Positions 32,877 through 63,705 of a stretch of 64,000 nt of DNA are shown here, one piece after another. Source of the stretch: Acidimicrobiaceae bacterium (GTDB lineage: Bacteria > Actinomycetota > Acidimicrobiia > Acidimicrobiales > RAAP-2). Both the position numbers and the translations under genes were made by a program. The stretch spans positions 1-64,000 of the forward strand of contig PLHF01000089.1 of the NCBI GenBank assembly GCA_003138855.1, in the 5' to 3' direction. A model generated the notes under the pieces. The model did not search any database and was not told the DNA's origin. It worked only from the letters and a program-made list of their open reading frames with translations. How positions within the stretch are numbered: position 1 is the stretch's first letter; each line of letters opens with the position of its first letter.

Positions 32877-35800
32877 TCAGTTGATGGCGATGACCGGTTG
32901 CTTCAGATCGAGCCCGCCGGCGGAACCGTAGAAGGAGGCGTCACCGAAGGCGAAGATCCCACCGTCGGAGGCCACCAGCCAGTAGCCGTTGCCGCTGGGG
33001 GTCGTGGCCATGCTCACGATCGGCTTGTTGAGGGGCAGCCCGCCGGTCGATCCTTCGAAGTTCGCATCGCCGAAGGTGAAGATGCCGCCGTCGGAAGCGA
33101 CCAGCCAGTAGCCCCGACCATCAGGAGTGGCGGCCATGCCCACGATGGGTTTGTTGAGGTCGAGCGCACCGGTTGAGCCGTAGGAGGCGACACTCCCGTA
33201 GGTGTAGATGCTGCCGTCACTGGTGGCCAACACGTAGCCCTCGGAGTTCTGAGGCCGCTTGGGCGGGCTTCCGGTCGTGCCCGGCGGCACCGTCGTGGTC
33301 GTGCTCGGCGGCACCGTCGTGGTCGTGGTCGGCGGCACCGTGGTCGTTGTGGTCGGTGTGGTGGTCGGCGGCGATCCCGAGTCGCCCGCGGCCAGGGGCG
33401 TCAGGTCGGACCCGTTGACCTGGTCGGCCGAAGCGGACCCTCCGTAGACCTGGAGTGCGTGGATGAATGCTGTACCGACCTGGCCCGGCGTCCACCACGG
33501 TGGGATGCCCCCTCCGTAGTACCCACCGAAGTTGACTTCGGTGACGGAGATCTTGACCGCGCTGGCCACGACCGGGTCGAAGGCCAGCTGCATCTCGTGG
33601 TTCCGGTACTGGCCGCCGACGGTGGCCACGGTGGTCCATCCGACCGAGGGTTGGTCGACCGAGACGGTGTAGTCCCGCACGCTGGTGGCGGTGCTCCCCA
33701 CCGACTGGGTGTCGACGACGACCCGGTTGATGGTGGACGGGCCGGACAGGGTGACGGTCAGACTCGGGGTGGTGTCGCCAGACGCCGAGCTCCAGCCGCT
33801 TCCGGTGGTGGTCCCGGCGATGGCGCCCGAGGCGTTGCCAGAGGTGGCAGTGGCCGTGGCGTCGCGAGATAACGCCGCCAGATCACTCCCGTAGGGCTGG
33901 GTGGGGCCGACGGACAGCGCGTCGCCCACCGGGTAGGAGATGTAGGAGACCTGGTCGGAGATGGGGAGGCTGTATGCGGTGCCCGAGGTGGCCGAGGTGG
34001 TCGTGGCATTGCCATACTCGTCGGTCACCGTCACCGGGATCGAGCCGCCGCCTGGGGCGGTCAGCGTGACTGCGCCGGTCACGGACAGGCCGTCGGACCA
34101 CACGGCGGCAAGCTGGTCGGCACCTGCTCCGGCCGGGCCGAAGGTGGCCTCATAGGTCTGGGGGATCCCGGTCGAGGGCATCGCCAGATAGGGGCGCCCG
34201 TCGATCTCGGAGGAGGTGGACATGGCGGCAAGTGCCCCTGGCTTCACGTAGTCGTCGACGTTGCTGGCCTGGATCAGCGAGAACGACACCCCGTCGTTGC
34301 CCCAGTTGCCCTCGTCGTAGAAGTAGTTCCACACGGGGATGTCGAGTGCCTTCTGCCAGATCATGGCCCTGGCCACCATGTTGGCCTGGTTGAGGAAGTT
34401 GTAGTCGCCGTCGCTCCACCACCCCACTTCTGTGCACCACAGCGGCTTGCCGTCCAGCATCCCCTCCAGTTGCTGGATCTTGGGGATATTGCCGTACTCT
34501 TCGAACGATTCGTTGTTGCCGGTGTACGGGTGGATCGCGGCCACGTCGAGCCAGGAGAGGCCCCCGGCGCTGATCAGCTGCTGCCACCAGCTGACCGCCA
34601 CGTCGAGCGTCGATCCGCCGATGACCGTCGAGGTGGAGCCCGGCTCGACCGACTTCACGGCCGTATAGAAGGGCTCGAGCACCTGGGTGACGTACAGGCT
34701 GGCGTTGGACCACCCGGTGTTGTTCGACTCGTTCCACGGCTCCCACATCGTGACCGGTGCGCACGCACCGCAGCCGGCCGGTGGATGGGCGTAGTAGTCG
34801 ACGAGTGCGGCGATGTCTCCCTCCCACCAGCCCTTGCTGACCAGGGCCGACGACACAGGGTCACCGCCGCTCACCTGGACCCAGTAGGCGACGTGGTCGG
34901 CCACGGCGAGGGCCGCAGCCGTGAAGTAGTCGGTCGGGGCATTGGCGAAGGTCATGGCCGCCGGCCCGCAGGTGGCCGCCGTCGGCGCCGACGTCGAGCA
35001 GTTGGGGAGGAAGGTTGCCCAGTTGACCGACGCCCCCCGGTACCCGTCGAGACCGAGCTCGGAGTTGAGGGCTACGCCCCTGGGGTCGGACGGTCCTCCG
35101 GCGCCGATGCCGGACGGGAGGCCGGCCAGGTTCAAAGCGTCTCCGGTGGTACCCACCGTGTACGGCGTGCAGGTGGTCCCGAGCCGGGTCGGTGGCGAGG
35201 TGCTCGTGTCGAAGAGGGACGCCTGCACCTGGTAGGGACCGGGTTGTTGGTCGGTCGCCGGGATGGTCAGGGGGATGCTGGCCAGGACAGCGGCCGTGGT
35301 GGGAAGCGCGAGGGTGGTCGGTGCAGGCACCGTCTCGGAGTTCAGCGAGGAGCTGTTCTCCACCGAGTAGGACAGCTGCAGGTGGGAGGCATGCGCCGCC
35401 CACCACGGATCGAAGTTGGCGCTCACCACCGGGATGGTCCCGGGGGCGAAGTAGTTGCCCGACGCCGCCGTCGACAGGCCGGCACCCCACCCGAGGCTGT
35501 CGGTCGGCACATGGATTGCGCCGAGATAGGCCTGGAGGGTGGCGAGCGGGACGGAAGAGATGTTGTCCGCTCCGCCGTTGAAGGGCGGGCCCCCCTGGTA
35601 GTAGACGGTGGTGCCGACCAGGTAGAAGTTGCTGCCGCCGATGTTCAGGTTTCCGTCGAGTTCAGTGGTGCCCTGGAGGTAGCCCTGGGGGCTCGTGCTC
35701 TCGATGGTGTGGAGCGGGTCGGCCGTGTAGATCGTCCCATCCGGTCCCTGCACGGCCTGCGCCGGGTAGTAGAACTGGGTCCCCGACCCGGTGTGGAGGT

Positions 35801-36563
35801 TCTTCCCCTCGGTGTTGGCGGAGCCGAAGGAGGAGAGGACCGTGGAACCGGTGGGATCCAAGGTTTCCACGTGGCCGTTGCCCGTAAAGAGGAGGTTCCC
35901 GTTCGACTCCTGGGTGACGTGGTCGAAGTCGTCGACCAGCGCGTAGGAGCCGCTGACCGCTCCGGTGGACGGATTGAGCAGGGTGCTGCTCGTCGTGTTC
36001 TGGACCACGCTGACAACCAACTGGAACGCCGACCCCGAGCCCACTCCGAACAGACCGGTAGGATTGCCCGACTGGGGGTCGACCGACCAGAGCAGGGTGC
36101 CCGACGGTGAGAACTTGTCCACCAGCTTGCCGTAGTAGCTGGACAGGAAGATGTTGCCGGACGAGTCGACCACCGGCTGGGAGACCTCGTCGCCCGAGCC
36201 GAACTGCGCCGGCACGGCGAATGATCCGTTCGGGCTTCCCGAGAGGGTGTAGGTGTCGAGCATGGAGCCGGTGTAGACGTAGATCCCGCTCGATGTGACG
36301 GTGAAGTCGTAAACGCCGCCCGCCGGGGTGACGACTGTGCTGGTCGGGTTGGACGGCAGGCTTGGCGCCGGGCCGAGGGTGGTCGAGGCATCCGGAGCAT
36401 CACAGATCGGGCTGACGTCCGCGGCGGTCGGGGCGGCCACACTCCCGGCGATCTGGGGGGAAGGGGTGGTGGCCTGCGCCGTGTCGGTGAGACCCCCGGC
36501 AATCGGCACTGTGACCATCAATCCGATTGCAATGCCGATGACGACGCCTTTTCGAGGGCGCAC
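32877..36563 (-). CDS. Large secreted multidomain protein: N-terminal propeller-like region, clan GH-A-like glycosidase domain, F5/8-type C domain, Thr/Pro linker, C-terminal [12 protein letters not shown] repeats
   Basis: Signal-like [36 protein letters not shown] and [14 protein letters not shown] (putative acid/base and nucleophile); [16 protein letters not shown]; (TTTTVPP)n; three C-terminal repeats. Confidence 0.75.
33283..33354. repeat. Three 24-bp tandem repeats encoding the TTTVPP linker
   Basis: ggcggcaccgtcgtggtcgtgctc / ggcggcaccgtcgtggtcgtggtc / ggcggcaccgtggtcgttgtggtc. Confidence 0.95.
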
Positions 36564-36781
36564 CAGTTGACTGCTCCTGCCTGCCCACTCCACACCTTCC
36601 CATCGACGGACCCCGCTGCATCTTGAGACAAACGTCACTCAAAATGACCTACGTCCCATCACTTTCAGTGGTAATGGTCCGCTACGCTGGGCTGACGAGG
36701 GGTGTACCCGCCGGTGGAAGTACGATGCGCCGGGTGGCGACTTCCCCCGAGCACGTTCCTTCCCCGTCACTGCAGCGACCG

Positions 36782-59542: not shown

Positions 59543-61480
59543 TCAGCCCGGGAGGAGGTTCCACACGTCGACGTCGATGTCGCGCGTCGGTGGCCGCCCC
59601 ACCAGCCAGGTGAGGAACTGGAGCGCGCCATCAGGTCGGGGCTCGCTCTCGAAGGAGGCCACGAGGCTCCGGACATTCCACGACCGGAACTGGGCCAGGA
59701 GCGCGGTGCGCAGCTGGGGAGTCTCCGGCGGGGGAGTGCCCGCGTGGAGCTGGATGAGGACCGTGGCGGTCAGGGTGTCCGCCCCGTACGAGACGACCGG
59801 GGAGAACCCGATGGTATGCCCCGGGCCGTCGCGCACCAGGAAGTAGCCACCGGGGGACTTGAAGTGCATCCCGCTGACCGCCTGCCAGAGCTCGCCCTCG
59901 GGCGCAGCGGAGGACGGATAGGGGTAGAGGATCGACACGCTTCCCGCCGGTGTGGCGCCGAGCAACGGCGAGGTGAAGTACGCGGGTGTGTCCGGATCGG
60001 CGAACCCCGGCAGGGGCAGGTCCGGGGCGAGGGGGACCAGGCAGACCAGCGCGAGGGCCAGGGGGACGGCCCCGGCCAGGACGGCGGACGCACTCGGGGA
60101 GCGGCCGGCGCTTGCCGATCGGGTCGCCACCGTCGCATGCAGCCGGTCGAGGACGAGAGCCAGCAGCAGTCCGGCGAAGAGCGCCACGTACAGCGAGTAG
60201 CGGACCGGAATGGTGTTGGCTAGGAGCGGGAGCCTGGCGAACAGCCGCTCCGGGAGGGGGAGGCCCGACACGATCGCCCCGGGCGGGTGGCGGACGACCA
60301 GCCCGCCACCCAGTGAGAGCACGAACGCGGCGATCCCGCCGATGACGGCCGTCCGGGCGACGTCCGACCGGCGCCACAACACGACGGCGCCGACGGCCAG
60401 GGTGATGAGCAGCGTGATCCCCAGGTACGAACCGTTCTCCGCCGTGCTGTTGGCGAAGCCGTCGGCGATCCGGACCAGGCCGGCAGGCGCCAACCACACG
60501 AAGGCGTTCGGGACCACCGGTCCGAGGAGATCGGCCCGGTATGCCTGTGGCACCAGTTGGATGGGCCCGTTGATGTGCCCGGGCCCACGGAGGGCGGACC
60601 ACACCGGATAGGTCAGCAGGACCGCGGACACGCCGGCGGCCCAGGCAACCCCGACCAGAGCGGGGCGGAGGTGCGCGCGGACCGACCGGCGGCCCATCAC
60701 CAGTACGGCGATGATGCAGACGGCATCGACCACCAGCGTCGATGCCAGCACCTCGCTCGAGACGAAGAACTGGGCGACCACCAGCAGGCCGAGCACCACA
60801 CCCGCGGTGGGCGGAGTCCGCTGTCGACGCACCAGCACGTCATGGGTGGCGAGGAGGATCAGCGGCGGCAGCACGACGAAGGTGAGGTTGAGGTGGCCGC
60901 CGTGGCTCTGGGCGATCTGGTACGGGGAGAACCCGTAGAGCAGGCCGCACACCCACGCAGCGGGGCGCCAGGTGGTCCAGCGTCGGGCGAAGAAGTACCC
61001 GGCGGTCGCCGAACCGGCCAGCGCCGCCGTGCACCAGAAGTTGTAGGTGGCGATCGGTCCGAACAGGAGGGTCACCGGAGAGCCGACCAGCCCCAGCAGG
61101 GGAACACTTGTGTTCGTCAGCAGATTGACCCCGAACGGGTAGTTCCCGAAGATGGTGAAGAAGGGATTGTGGCCATGGGTGAGGGAGAAGGGGATCCAGC
61201 GCAGGAACCACACCGTGGCGAACTGATCGCCGCCCAACTGCATGTGCGTGGTGGGGCTCGTCGACCACGCGGACCAGTACGACGCGATGGAAAGGGCCAG
61301 GTAGGACGCCACCACCAGGCAGGCCGCCCAAGCAGAAGATCGATGTCTGCCGCCGGCGGCACTCCCGTCCGGGCGGACGGGGTCCGACCCTGGGTAGCCT
61401 GTCTTCTCGGCGCCCTTCCGAGGGCCGGTTGCGACGGCGCCGTACGCCTTTGCCTGCCGGTCCTCGTCAGCGACGGCCAT
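59543..61480 (-). CDS. Large multi-pass membrane protein, GT-C-glycosyltransferase-like
   Basis: About 12 hydrophobic segments; GGDQFATVWFLRWIPFSLTHGHNPFFT with acidic residue in first loop; YGFSPYQIAQSHGGHLNLTFV. Confidence 0.65.
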   Translation of the reverse strand: MAVADEDRQAKAYGAVATGPRKGAEKTGYPGSDPVRPDGSAAGGRHRSSAWAACLVVASYLALSIASYWSAWSTSPTTHMQLGGDQFATVWFLRWIPFSLTHGHNPFFTIFGNYPFGVNLLTNTSVPLLGLVGSPVTLLFGPIATYNFWCTAALAGSATAGYFFARRWTTWRPAAWVCGLLYGFSPYQIAQSHGGHLNLTFVVLPPLILLATHDVLVRRQRTPPTAGVVLGLLVVAQFFVSSEVLASTLVVDAVCIIAVLVMGRRSVRAHLRPALVGVAWAAGVSAVLLTYPVWSALRGPGHINGPIQLVPQAYRADLLGPVVPNAFVWLAPAGLVRIADGFANSTAENGSYLGITLLITLAVGAVVLWRRSDVARTAVIGGIAAFVLSLGGGLVVRHPPGAIVSGLPLPERLFARLPLLANTIPVRYSLYVALFAGLLLALVLDRLHATVATRSASAGRSPSASAVLAGAVPLALALVCLVPLAPDLPLPGFADPDTPAYFTSPLLGATPAGSVSILYPYPSSAAPEGELWQAVSGMHFKSPGGYFLVRDGPGHTIGFSPVVSYGADTLTATVLIQLHAGTPPPETPQLRTALLAQFRSWNVRSLVASFESEPRPDGALQFLTWLVGRPPTRDIDVDVWNLLPG

Positions 61481-61754: not shown

Positions 61755-61782
61755 GCAACACCTGTTGAGCAACACCTGTTGT
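61755..61782. promoter_or_regulatory. 14-bp tandem repeat, each copy containing the palindrome CAACACCTGTTG, upstream of sipW-like gene
   Basis: GCAACACCTGTTGA GCAACACCTGTTGT read directly in the 61481-61826 divergent intergenic region. Confidence 0.85.
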
Positions 61783-61826
61783 CAAAATCGCTCAAGCCGA
61801 TATCTCCCGGTGCCGAAGACCCAGGT

Positions 61827-62390
61827 GTGACACATTCGGGACAGCCGCCGACCAGGCGGTCCAAACGGTCGAGGCGATCCAGCCAGGTCCTGCGTGCCTT
61901 CTGCATGGCCGGTGTCGCCGGGCTGTCCGTGGTGTGCGCCGGCCTGGCGATGGTGGTCGTGACGATGCACCTCGAGCTCAGGCCGGTACTGACCGGGAGC
62001 ATGCGTCCCACCTACGGCCCCGGAGCGCTCTTGGTGACCAGGCCGGTGCCGGTGGAGGACCTGCACAAGGGGATGATCGTCGCGTTCGTCCCCCCAGGGG
62101 AGCATGCGGACTTCGCCCACCGGATCACCTCGGTGACCGGACCCCCGTTGGCGCCGATCATCACCACCAAGGGCGATGCGAACTCCGCCCCCGATCCGTG
62201 GCACGCACAGTTGACCACGGCCACCGTGCCGGAAGTGGTGGCCACCGTGCCGTGGGTGGGCCGTCTGATGGTCGACCTCCGGGGCCAGCTCCAACTTCTC
62301 TTGATCGTTGCCGGCGGGCTGTATGCAGCCGTGGCCGGAACCCGCTGGATCCTGCGCCCGCGGCCCACCCTGCGGAGCACGAGCGCATGA
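61827..62390 (+). CDS. SipW/archaeal-type (S26B) signal peptidase I
   Basis: RPVLTGSMRPTYGPGALLVTRPVPVEDLHKGMIVAFVPPG..FAHRITSVTG..ITTKGDANSAPDPW: Ser, His and Asp motifs of S26B peptidases. Confidence 0.85.
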   Translation: MTHSGQPPTRRSKRSRRSSQVLRAFCMAGVAGLSVVCAGLAMVVVTMHLELRPVLTGSMRPTYGPGALLVTRPVPVEDLHKGMIVAFVPPGEHADFAHRITSVTGPPLAPIITTKGDANSAPDPWHAQLTTATVPEVVATVPWVGRLMVDLRGQLQLLLIVAGGLYAAVAGTRWILRPRPTLRSTSA

Positions 62391-62430
62391 TGCCTGAGAC
62401 CTGCCAACCAATACCAATCCAATAGCAATC

Positions 62431-62454
62431 CATCAATACGTATCGCCATTGATG
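62431..62454. other. Inverted repeat between sipW-like gene and first TasA-like gene
   Basis: CATCAAT-ACGTATCGCC-ATTGATG. Confidence 0.7.
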
Positions 62455-62479
62455 CGTGTACCTACCAAGGAGAAGAACC

Positions 62480-63148
62480 ATGAGTCAGCATCGCCACACC
62501 CGGATGAAGGCGGGACGACACGGGAAAGCCGTTGTCGCCGGACTCTTCGCCATGTCGGTCGGGCTTCTGACCACCGCCGGTGTCTACGCGGCCCTGTCGG
62601 GTGTTGCCACCGGGTCCGAGGCCGTTACCTCGGGGACCCTCAACTTGACCCTGAGCCCCGATGTCGGCACCAGCTTCAGCAACTTCACCGGAGTGATGGC
62701 CCCGGGCGACACCGACAACGTCTATGTGAATCTCAACAACACCGGATCCCTGGCCACCGCCGCCGGCATGACGCTGTGGGTGGCGGGAACGCCTGCCAAC
62801 GCCCTGACCAACGGAACGGCGCCGGGTGAGGGACTGTCCGTGACGGCCACCCAGTGCTCGGTGGCCTGGACGTTGGCCGGCGTGTGCGGCGGTAGCACGA
62901 CGCCGATCCTGGCCACGACGCAGATCAACTCCATGAACACCGCCGGAACTGCTGTCGGCCTGTCCAACATTCCCTCGTTGGTAGCGTCAACCGGAAAGGC
63001 GGCCCACGTACAGGTGAGCCTCGGCCTGGTTGCCACGGAGACGTCCACCAACGGTGTGGCGCCCACGCCGACCATCCAGGGCCTGTCGACCACGCTGGCC
63101 TACACCTTCACCGAGCAGCAGCGAGTCGGTACTGCAACCAACCAGTAG
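62480..63148 (+). CDS. TasA/camelysin-like, SipW-dependent-type signal peptide-containing secreted protein
   Basis: SD aaggag; AMSVGLLTTAGVYAALSGVATGSEAVTSGTLNLTLSPDVGTSFSNFTGVMAPGDTDNVYVNLNNTGSLA. Confidence 0.75.
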   Translation: MSQHRHTRMKAGRHGKAVVAGLFAMSVGLLTTAGVYAALSGVATGSEAVTSGTLNLTLSPDVGTSFSNFTGVMAPGDTDNVYVNLNNTGSLATAAGMTLWVAGTPANALTNGTAPGEGLSVTATQCSVAWTLAGVCGGSTTPILATTQINSMNTAGTAVGLSNIPSLVASTGKAAHVQVSLGLVATETSTNGVAPTPTIQGLSTTLAYTFTEQQRVGTATNQ

Positions 63149-63159
63149 TCGGTAGAGCA

Positions 63160-63705
63160 GTGAAAGTGCATCACCTACACCGCAGTGCACGCAGGGCGGC
63201 CGCAACAGCGGCCATCCTGCTGTGCGCGGTGTTCGTGGCGCCCATCCATGCCGGAGCTGCCGGCAAGGTGAGCGGTACCGTCATCGGCTCCGAATCGGTG
63301 GCCAGCGGGAAGTGGCTGGCTACGGTGAGCCCCGCGGGGATGACGTTCACGACCAGCACCGACCAGACTGCGACGGTCGCCAATACCGGAACCATCGCCC
63401 TGTCGGGGATCAGCTACAAGGTCACCGTCTCGACTCCCGCCTCGGGGTCGCCCACGTTCAAGTTGTACACGTGCACCGTGGCCTGGTCGAGCAACAAGTG
63501 CAGTGGTGGCGCCGGGACTCAGGTCGGTTCGACGTTCTCCAAGGGCCCGGCCACGACGGTGAGCTCGACCGTGGCGATCGCGGTCGGTGCCGACGAGTAC
63601 CTGCAGGTCGAGCCGACCGGGGTGACGTCTTCGGTGACGGTGACGCTGGGCACCTCGATCAATCCGGCGACGCAGCTGCGGTCGCCGATCGCCACGAATC
63701 ACTGA
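63160..63705 (+). CDS. Second TasA/camelysin-like secreted protein (paralogue of the preceding gene)
   Basis: Signal peptide ...APIHAGAA; KVSGTVIGSESVASGKWLATVSPAGMTFTTSTDQTATVANTGTIALSGISYKVTV; shares CTVAW..C..GG with the previous gene. Confidence 0.65.
   Translation: MKVHHLHRSARRAAATAAILLCAVFVAPIHAGAAGKVSGTVIGSESVASGKWLATVSPAGMTFTTSTDQTATVANTGTIALSGISYKVTVSTPASGSPTFKLYTCTVAWSSNKCSGGAGTQVGSTFSKGPATTVSSTVAIAVGADEYLQVEPTGVTSSVTVTLGTSINPATQLRSPIATNH

Follow-up and report, generated by a model that had tools for sequence, protein, structure and literature searches.

What is the function of a compact cluster that places a signal peptidase gene directly before the genes of two small secreted proteins in a soil actinobacterium of the order Acidimicrobiales, and what controls its expression? 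The initial annotation of this DNA proposed that the cluster encodes matrix fibres and forms a single island with exopolysaccharide (EPS) genes, which would make both polysaccharide and protein components of the matrix. Here, we describe an analysis of the cluster within the window, a stretch of 64,000 nt that opens a contig of 70,221 bp (positions 1-64000; the genome comprises 4.0 Mb in 155 contigs), and in related genomes. The named public ones among these are MAGs from Acidimicrobiales, and several carry the isolate label Chersky or palsa. On balance we favour, with somewhat more than even confidence, a three-gene operon for TasA-like fibres that would be governed by the WhiG-RsiG-(c-di-GMP) switch and expressed at low c-di-GMP. 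The computed basis of this reading comprises the families of genes 1 and 2, the paralogy of gene 3, the conservation of the operon and its promoter footprint, the presence of WhiG and RsiG, and the c-di-GMP enzymes encoded behind the same type of promoter.

The three genes are on the forward strand, and they, the motifs quoted from them in the initial annotation and the 89-bp gap between sipW and the tasA-like gene are all present in the sequence. The sipW gene (61827..62390, GTG start) encodes an S26B signal peptidase of 187 aa; the second gene (62480..63148) encodes a TasA/camelysin-like (Peptidase_M73) secreted protein of 222 aa, here called protein 2; and gene 3 (63160..63705, GTG start) encodes a small secreted protein of 181 aa, protein 3. 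The GTG at 61827 is in frame and invariant in six congeners and directly follows a stop codon in one of them (G001), so that it, and not 61755 or 61782, is most likely the sipW start. The TasA-like gene starts at the ATG at 62480, with an AAGGAG ribosome-binding site at about 62468, and gene 3 begins 12 bp past its end; the 89-bp gap before the TasA-like gene could hold a separate promoter. Among congeners protein 2 is about 69-86% identical with a dN/dS of 0.09-0.29, protein 3 is 39-64% identical with a dN/dS of 0.34-0.64, and the dN/dS of SipW is 0.31-0.50; judged by these values, the three are real genes.

The S26B character of the signal peptidase, as originally annotated, is borne out by its catalytic residues, while its matches to curated models fall short of their cut-offs. 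The best curated models are the archaeal-type signal peptidase I TIGR02228 (5.7e-13; 49.0 bits, cut-off 51.85) and the Bacillus SipW equivalog NF046067 (2.7e-9; 36.9 bits, far under its cut-off of 190), and PF10502 gives 22.7 bits against a cut-off of 22.9. The solved relatives are human SEC11A and SEC11C. In the alignment to SEC11A (E 0.0017) the GSM, HR and KGDxN boxes coincide and the catalytic Ser, His and Asp are matched, which points to the Ser-His-Asp pattern of S26B enzymes. The same genome encodes a second S26B signal peptidase (G000:C24:1-1695, L070), preceded by a truncated secreted protein that has a TasA-like start and no Pfam match.

Protein 2 belongs, by sequence, to the TasA/camelysin family, as had been noted for the first of the two small proteins: it exceeds the gathering threshold of PF12389 (camelysin/TasA, M73; 26.0 bits over 22.5, E 9.5e-6), and a family profile built with 13 relatives reaches TasA in the PDB (5of1/8aur, about 2e-5), the archaeal AbpX at 0.02 and little else. 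This family profile was required, as the single sequence had no match in the PDB, and the TasA equivalog NF046066 gave 11.6 bits against a cut-off of 450. In the family P75-G76-D77, the PGD box, is invariant, as are G52 and V83. A low-confidence AlphaFold model of protein 2 (pLDDT 54) leads Foldseek weakly but in the direction of TasA (5of2, probability 0.97, TM-score 0.44/0.50, E 0.087), which is first in both probability and TM-score among the 50 matches listed from 350,542 chains, none of the matches to this model being under E 0.001; the model of protein 3 (pLDDT 49) gave only scattered matches to beta-proteins, and we claim no fold for it. Judged from TasA, the mature form of which starts at residue 28 according to the TasA papers, the signal peptide of protein 2 would end at GVYA|ALSG, making A38 the first mature residue. 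By its family relationships, protein 2 is a probable fibre subunit.

Protein 3 matches no family in Pfam or the curated models, M73 included, and lacks the PGD proline box. Profile comparison with protein 2 nevertheless identifies it as a diverged paralogue: the probability is 95.6% when the signal peptides are included, the mature profiles alone score 37.9 in hhalign, where 100 column shuffles reach at most 21.8, and removal of the first ~25 mature residues leaves a score of 27.2 against a shuffled maximum of 18.7. The two proteins have in common an N-terminal SE(S/A)V.SG strand, an NTG motif and a C-[ST]-VAW...C loop, and over the mature N-terminus protein 3, whose gene is in the sipW operon, resembles the donor-strand segment of protein 2. 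Read by eye, the signal peptide of protein 3 has the look of an ordinary SPase I substrate, with a typical c-region and an AGA|A end. Of the second small protein as first annotated, the relatedness to protein 2 stands as paralogy, whereas a TasA-like identity is not supported, given the missing M73 match and PGD box and the SPase I-type signal. Orthologues of gene 3 adjoin the TasA-like gene in seven congeners. According to Böhning et al. (PMC9674648), TapA has an N-terminus similar to the donor strand of TasA, and CapP of B. cereus, a polymerisation chaperone from the same kind of operon, controls polymerisation (PMC13082335); these parallels make it plausible that protein 3 is an initiator or a cap/accessory subunit.

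The adjacency of sipW and the small-protein genes is conserved in relatives. The order sipW-TasA-like-gene 3 is kept in six congeneric genomes (G000, G001, G004, G008, G011 and G013), the contig ending at or within the module in G005, G007 and G012, and the TasA-like gene of G009 (L066:12250-13408, G009:C108) matches in three frames, as though through a frameshift or decay, or else an assembly error. Across the order, a TasA-like gene is found within 1.5 kb at about 18 of 30 sipW-like loci, in many families and in either gene order. This recurrence marks the sipW-TasA partnership as widespread and, in kind, already known; a partial literature search found no paper that links TasA or SipW to Acidimicrobiales. 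At four loci from other families (L042, L043, L045 and L046) a TasA-like gene and sipW are followed by a third small secreted protein unlike that of gene 3.

The region upstream of sipW contains a conserved element resembling a WhiG/sigma-28 promoter. When six congeners are aligned without gaps, no column out of 135 is invariant except those of CTCAAG-N17-CGA-N10-GTG: 12 of the 16 columns in the motif against none of the other 119. The six CTCAAG columns are invariant by construction, as the alignment was anchored on them; the six of CGA and GTG owe nothing to the anchor. MAFFT independently put the CTCAAG columns together, and synonymous divergence among the congeners is about 0.4-0.6 per site. 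In the window the -35-like CTCAAG (61791..61796, forward strand, invariant in 6/6 congeners) is followed after 15 nt by the -10-like heptamer GCCGAAG (61812..61818, forward strand, its CGA invariant in 6/6), and the GTG of sipW lies 8 nt past this heptamer, suggesting a transcript that is probably leaderless. The corresponding heptamers of the congeners are GTCGAAA, GTCGAAG, GCCGAGA and ACCGACA; all of these sequences depart from a strict GCCGATA, so that the sipW -10 could be weak or could be read by another sigma factor. Further upstream is a box (61771..61790, forward strand) that reads TTGAGCAACA..TTGTCAA in the window and TTGCGCAA..TTGnCAA in relatives; it is similar in most of the six congeners with no column fully invariant, occurs at 1 of 43 other WhiG-type sites and is thus not general, and is a possible activator site. 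A full upstream consensus including the TTGCGCAA box was discarded, the window sequence not matching it as written.

A genus-wide regulon provides the standard against which this element can be compared. In ten congeneric genomes the flagellar/WhiG-type pattern TMAA-N16-GCCGATA has 69 occurrences and its reversed control 0; with the spacer shortened by one base the counts are 9 and 5. The base after TMAA, which the pattern leaves unconstrained, is G at 40 of the 43 sites inspected, and at 28 of the 43 T[CA]AAG has a C before it, giving the consensus CTCAAG-N15-GCCGATA. A simpler pattern, CTCAAG-N15-GYCGA, was enriched only about 2.5-fold over control, which we ascribe to CTC AAG being a common codon pair, and was replaced by the stricter one. 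At most of the 43 sites a start codon follows within about 10 nt, which suggests that WhiG-type transcripts of the genus are mostly leaderless. Among the 29 downstream genes that were scanned, 16 encode GGDEF and/or EAL domains, arranged in several different ways, and some of the 29 are mutual orthologues and hence non-independent; the unscanned sites mostly had poor downstream reading frames. A relaxed pattern applied to sipW loci across the order gave too few matches to claim such control beyond the genus.

The regulators themselves are encoded in the genome. Its WhiG scores over the cut-off of NF004935 and matches the WhiG chain of 6pfj at 3.3e-90, and inspection places whiG in the order integrase-like (xerC-like)-whiG-rpsB-tsf-pyrH-frr. 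A search by motif pattern found RsiG at G000:C102 13055-13414 on the minus strand (L213:1120-1917); it carries both copies of the twin motif E(X)3S(X)2R(X)3[QH](X)3D, EVALSYLRRLIQGRLD and EHRVSADRRALHERID, and matches AmfC/RsiG of 6pfj at 1.2e-12. To our knowledge, WhiG-RsiG is the sole sigma-anti-sigma pair gated by c-di-GMP. RsiG loaded with c-di-GMP sequesters WhiG, the twin-motif form is present in 3 of 4 Acidimicrobiales surveyed, and in Rubrobacter 5 of 12 mapped WhiG promoters precede c-di-GMP enzymes (PMC8325347).

The sipW element thus agrees with the regulon in its CTCAAG, its spacing and its distance to the start codon and is conserved in relatives, yet it has GCCGAAG in place of GCCGATA; we regard WhiG control of this promoter as likely, though unproven. 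Were CTCAAG-N15-GCCGA-N10-GTG instead the promoter of another sigma factor (of the ECF type, for example) or a repressor site, the missing TA in the -10 and the additional semi-conserved box upstream would be accounted for. We consider this possibility rather unlikely, since the spacing is exactly that specific to the genus, and the CTCAAG and start-codon distance are those of the GCCGATA sites before GGDEF/EAL genes. Still less probable, in our view, is that protein 2 serves, in the manner of camelysin, as a cell-surface protein or a protease and is no fibre subunit. The Pfam family does take its name from camelysin, a metallo-endopeptidase, but the matches of the family profile, TasA and AbpX of the archaeal bundling pili, are filament subunits, and the invariant PGD box corresponds to the proline box that sits in the protomer interface of TasA (PMC10151520).

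A further alternative, in line with the initial annotation, is an ordinary SipW-TasA biofilm-matrix module, co-selected and co-regulated with an adjacent EPS island. A polysaccharide cluster is indeed found at about 36-53 kb, with at least 8 glycosyltransferases, a Wzy_C protein (Wzy-like ligase), a Bac_transf protein (initiating sugar transferase) and a ParA/tyrosine-kinase-like gene, and G008, G011 and G012, and in part G004, have the genes in the same order as far as the alcohol dehydrogenase. From the last glycosyltransferase to sipW, however, there are about 9 kb in which most genes are unrelated to EPS: SnoaL, a low-molecular-weight phosphatase, DUF6188, an epimerase, a coiled-coil/Zn-ribbon protein, a histidine-phosphatase, a TetR protein, the alcohol dehydrogenase and a 645-aa protein without a Pfam match. 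Moreover, G001 and G013 hold the module in different surroundings without that linkage, and the sipW type of WhiG site has no second occurrence in the 64,000-nt window and none at EPS genes. On these three grounds the one-island interpretation is weak: some members of the genus do have the two loci together, a functional coupling finds no support, and we consider co-regulation with EPS genes unlikely, if a little less so than the camelysin alternative. The 645-aa protein (window 59543-61480, minus strand) is apparently a polytopic membrane protein, in whose place G004 has a GDSL-lipase gene, and at the left edge of the polysaccharide cluster a 1253-aa protein (window 32877-36638, minus strand) contains an F5/8 type C domain.

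We return to the fibre operon under WhiG-RsiG, the product of which is very probably a TasA-like fibre of the cell surface or of a biofilm. Transcription would start from the WhiG/sigma-28-type promoter CTCAAG-N15-GCCGAAG directly 5' of sipW and yield a message with a leaderless GTG. SipW (S26B, Ser-His type) would release the TasA-like protein from its signal peptide by a cut at VYA|ALSG. The freed N-terminal strand ALSGVATGSEAVTSGTLNLTL would in turn slot into the subunit that follows, as happens in TasA and the camelysins, this donor-strand insertion building a surface or matrix fibre. Protein 3 has kept a very similar N-terminal strand and lost the PGD box, which TasA has in its subunit interface, and on this ground we propose that it initiates or caps the fibre in the manner of TapA or CapP. 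RsiG is expected to hold WhiG at high c-di-GMP, so that the operon would be on when c-di-GMP is low. The more inclusive proposition, that TasA-type fibres throughout the genus are a WhiG-RsiG-(c-di-GMP) target made at low c-di-GMP and that loss of the acceptor box turned the paralogue into an SPase I-processed initiator or cap, we advance as tentative.

As in tapA-sipW-tasA of B. subtilis, an S26B signal peptidase adjoins a TasA-family protein with an SGTL...PGD...NTG core and an N-terminal strand free for donor-strand exchange; unlike in that operon, no TapA homologue was found here, the third protein is a TasA-like paralogue, and a WhiG-type promoter in an actinobacterial host replaces control by SinR. 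The B. cereus operon sipW-tasA-capP(bc1280)-calY likewise begins with sipW followed by related secreted proteins, whereas here there are two such proteins only, the accessory-like one apparently processed by SPase I. The archaeal bundling pili (AbpX) are reached by the protein 2 profile, at a weak E of 0.02 and with no close sequence relation. The twin-motif RsiG, WhiG and the promoter class before DGC/PDE genes resemble the switch of Streptomyces and Rubrobacter, but the predicted target is a SipW-TasA fibre operon and not sporulation genes or type IV pili. A partial literature search found no paper linking TasA or SipW to WhiG, and the footprint of a WhiG-type promoter on a SipW-TasA operon is likely what is new here, in place of the EPS-island inference. 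If correct, sortase-independent fibres of the donor-strand type would extend to uncultivated soil and permafrost actinobacteria, and the WhiG-RsiG pair would gain an output besides sporulation (Streptomyces) and type IV pili (Rubrobacter), the third in all. Matrix production is usually driven by high c-di-GMP, a rule that fibres made at low c-di-GMP would reverse.

Besides GGDEF/EAL genes, the WhiG-type sites (L166-L205) precede a glycosyltransferase gene and genes for secreted proteins (RCC1 repeats, peptidase A4). The sipW-TasA-paralogue module of G013 is directly followed downstream by an EAL-domain gene (L060:8593-9615), the start of which is similar to that of a G000 EAL gene bearing its own WhiG-type site.
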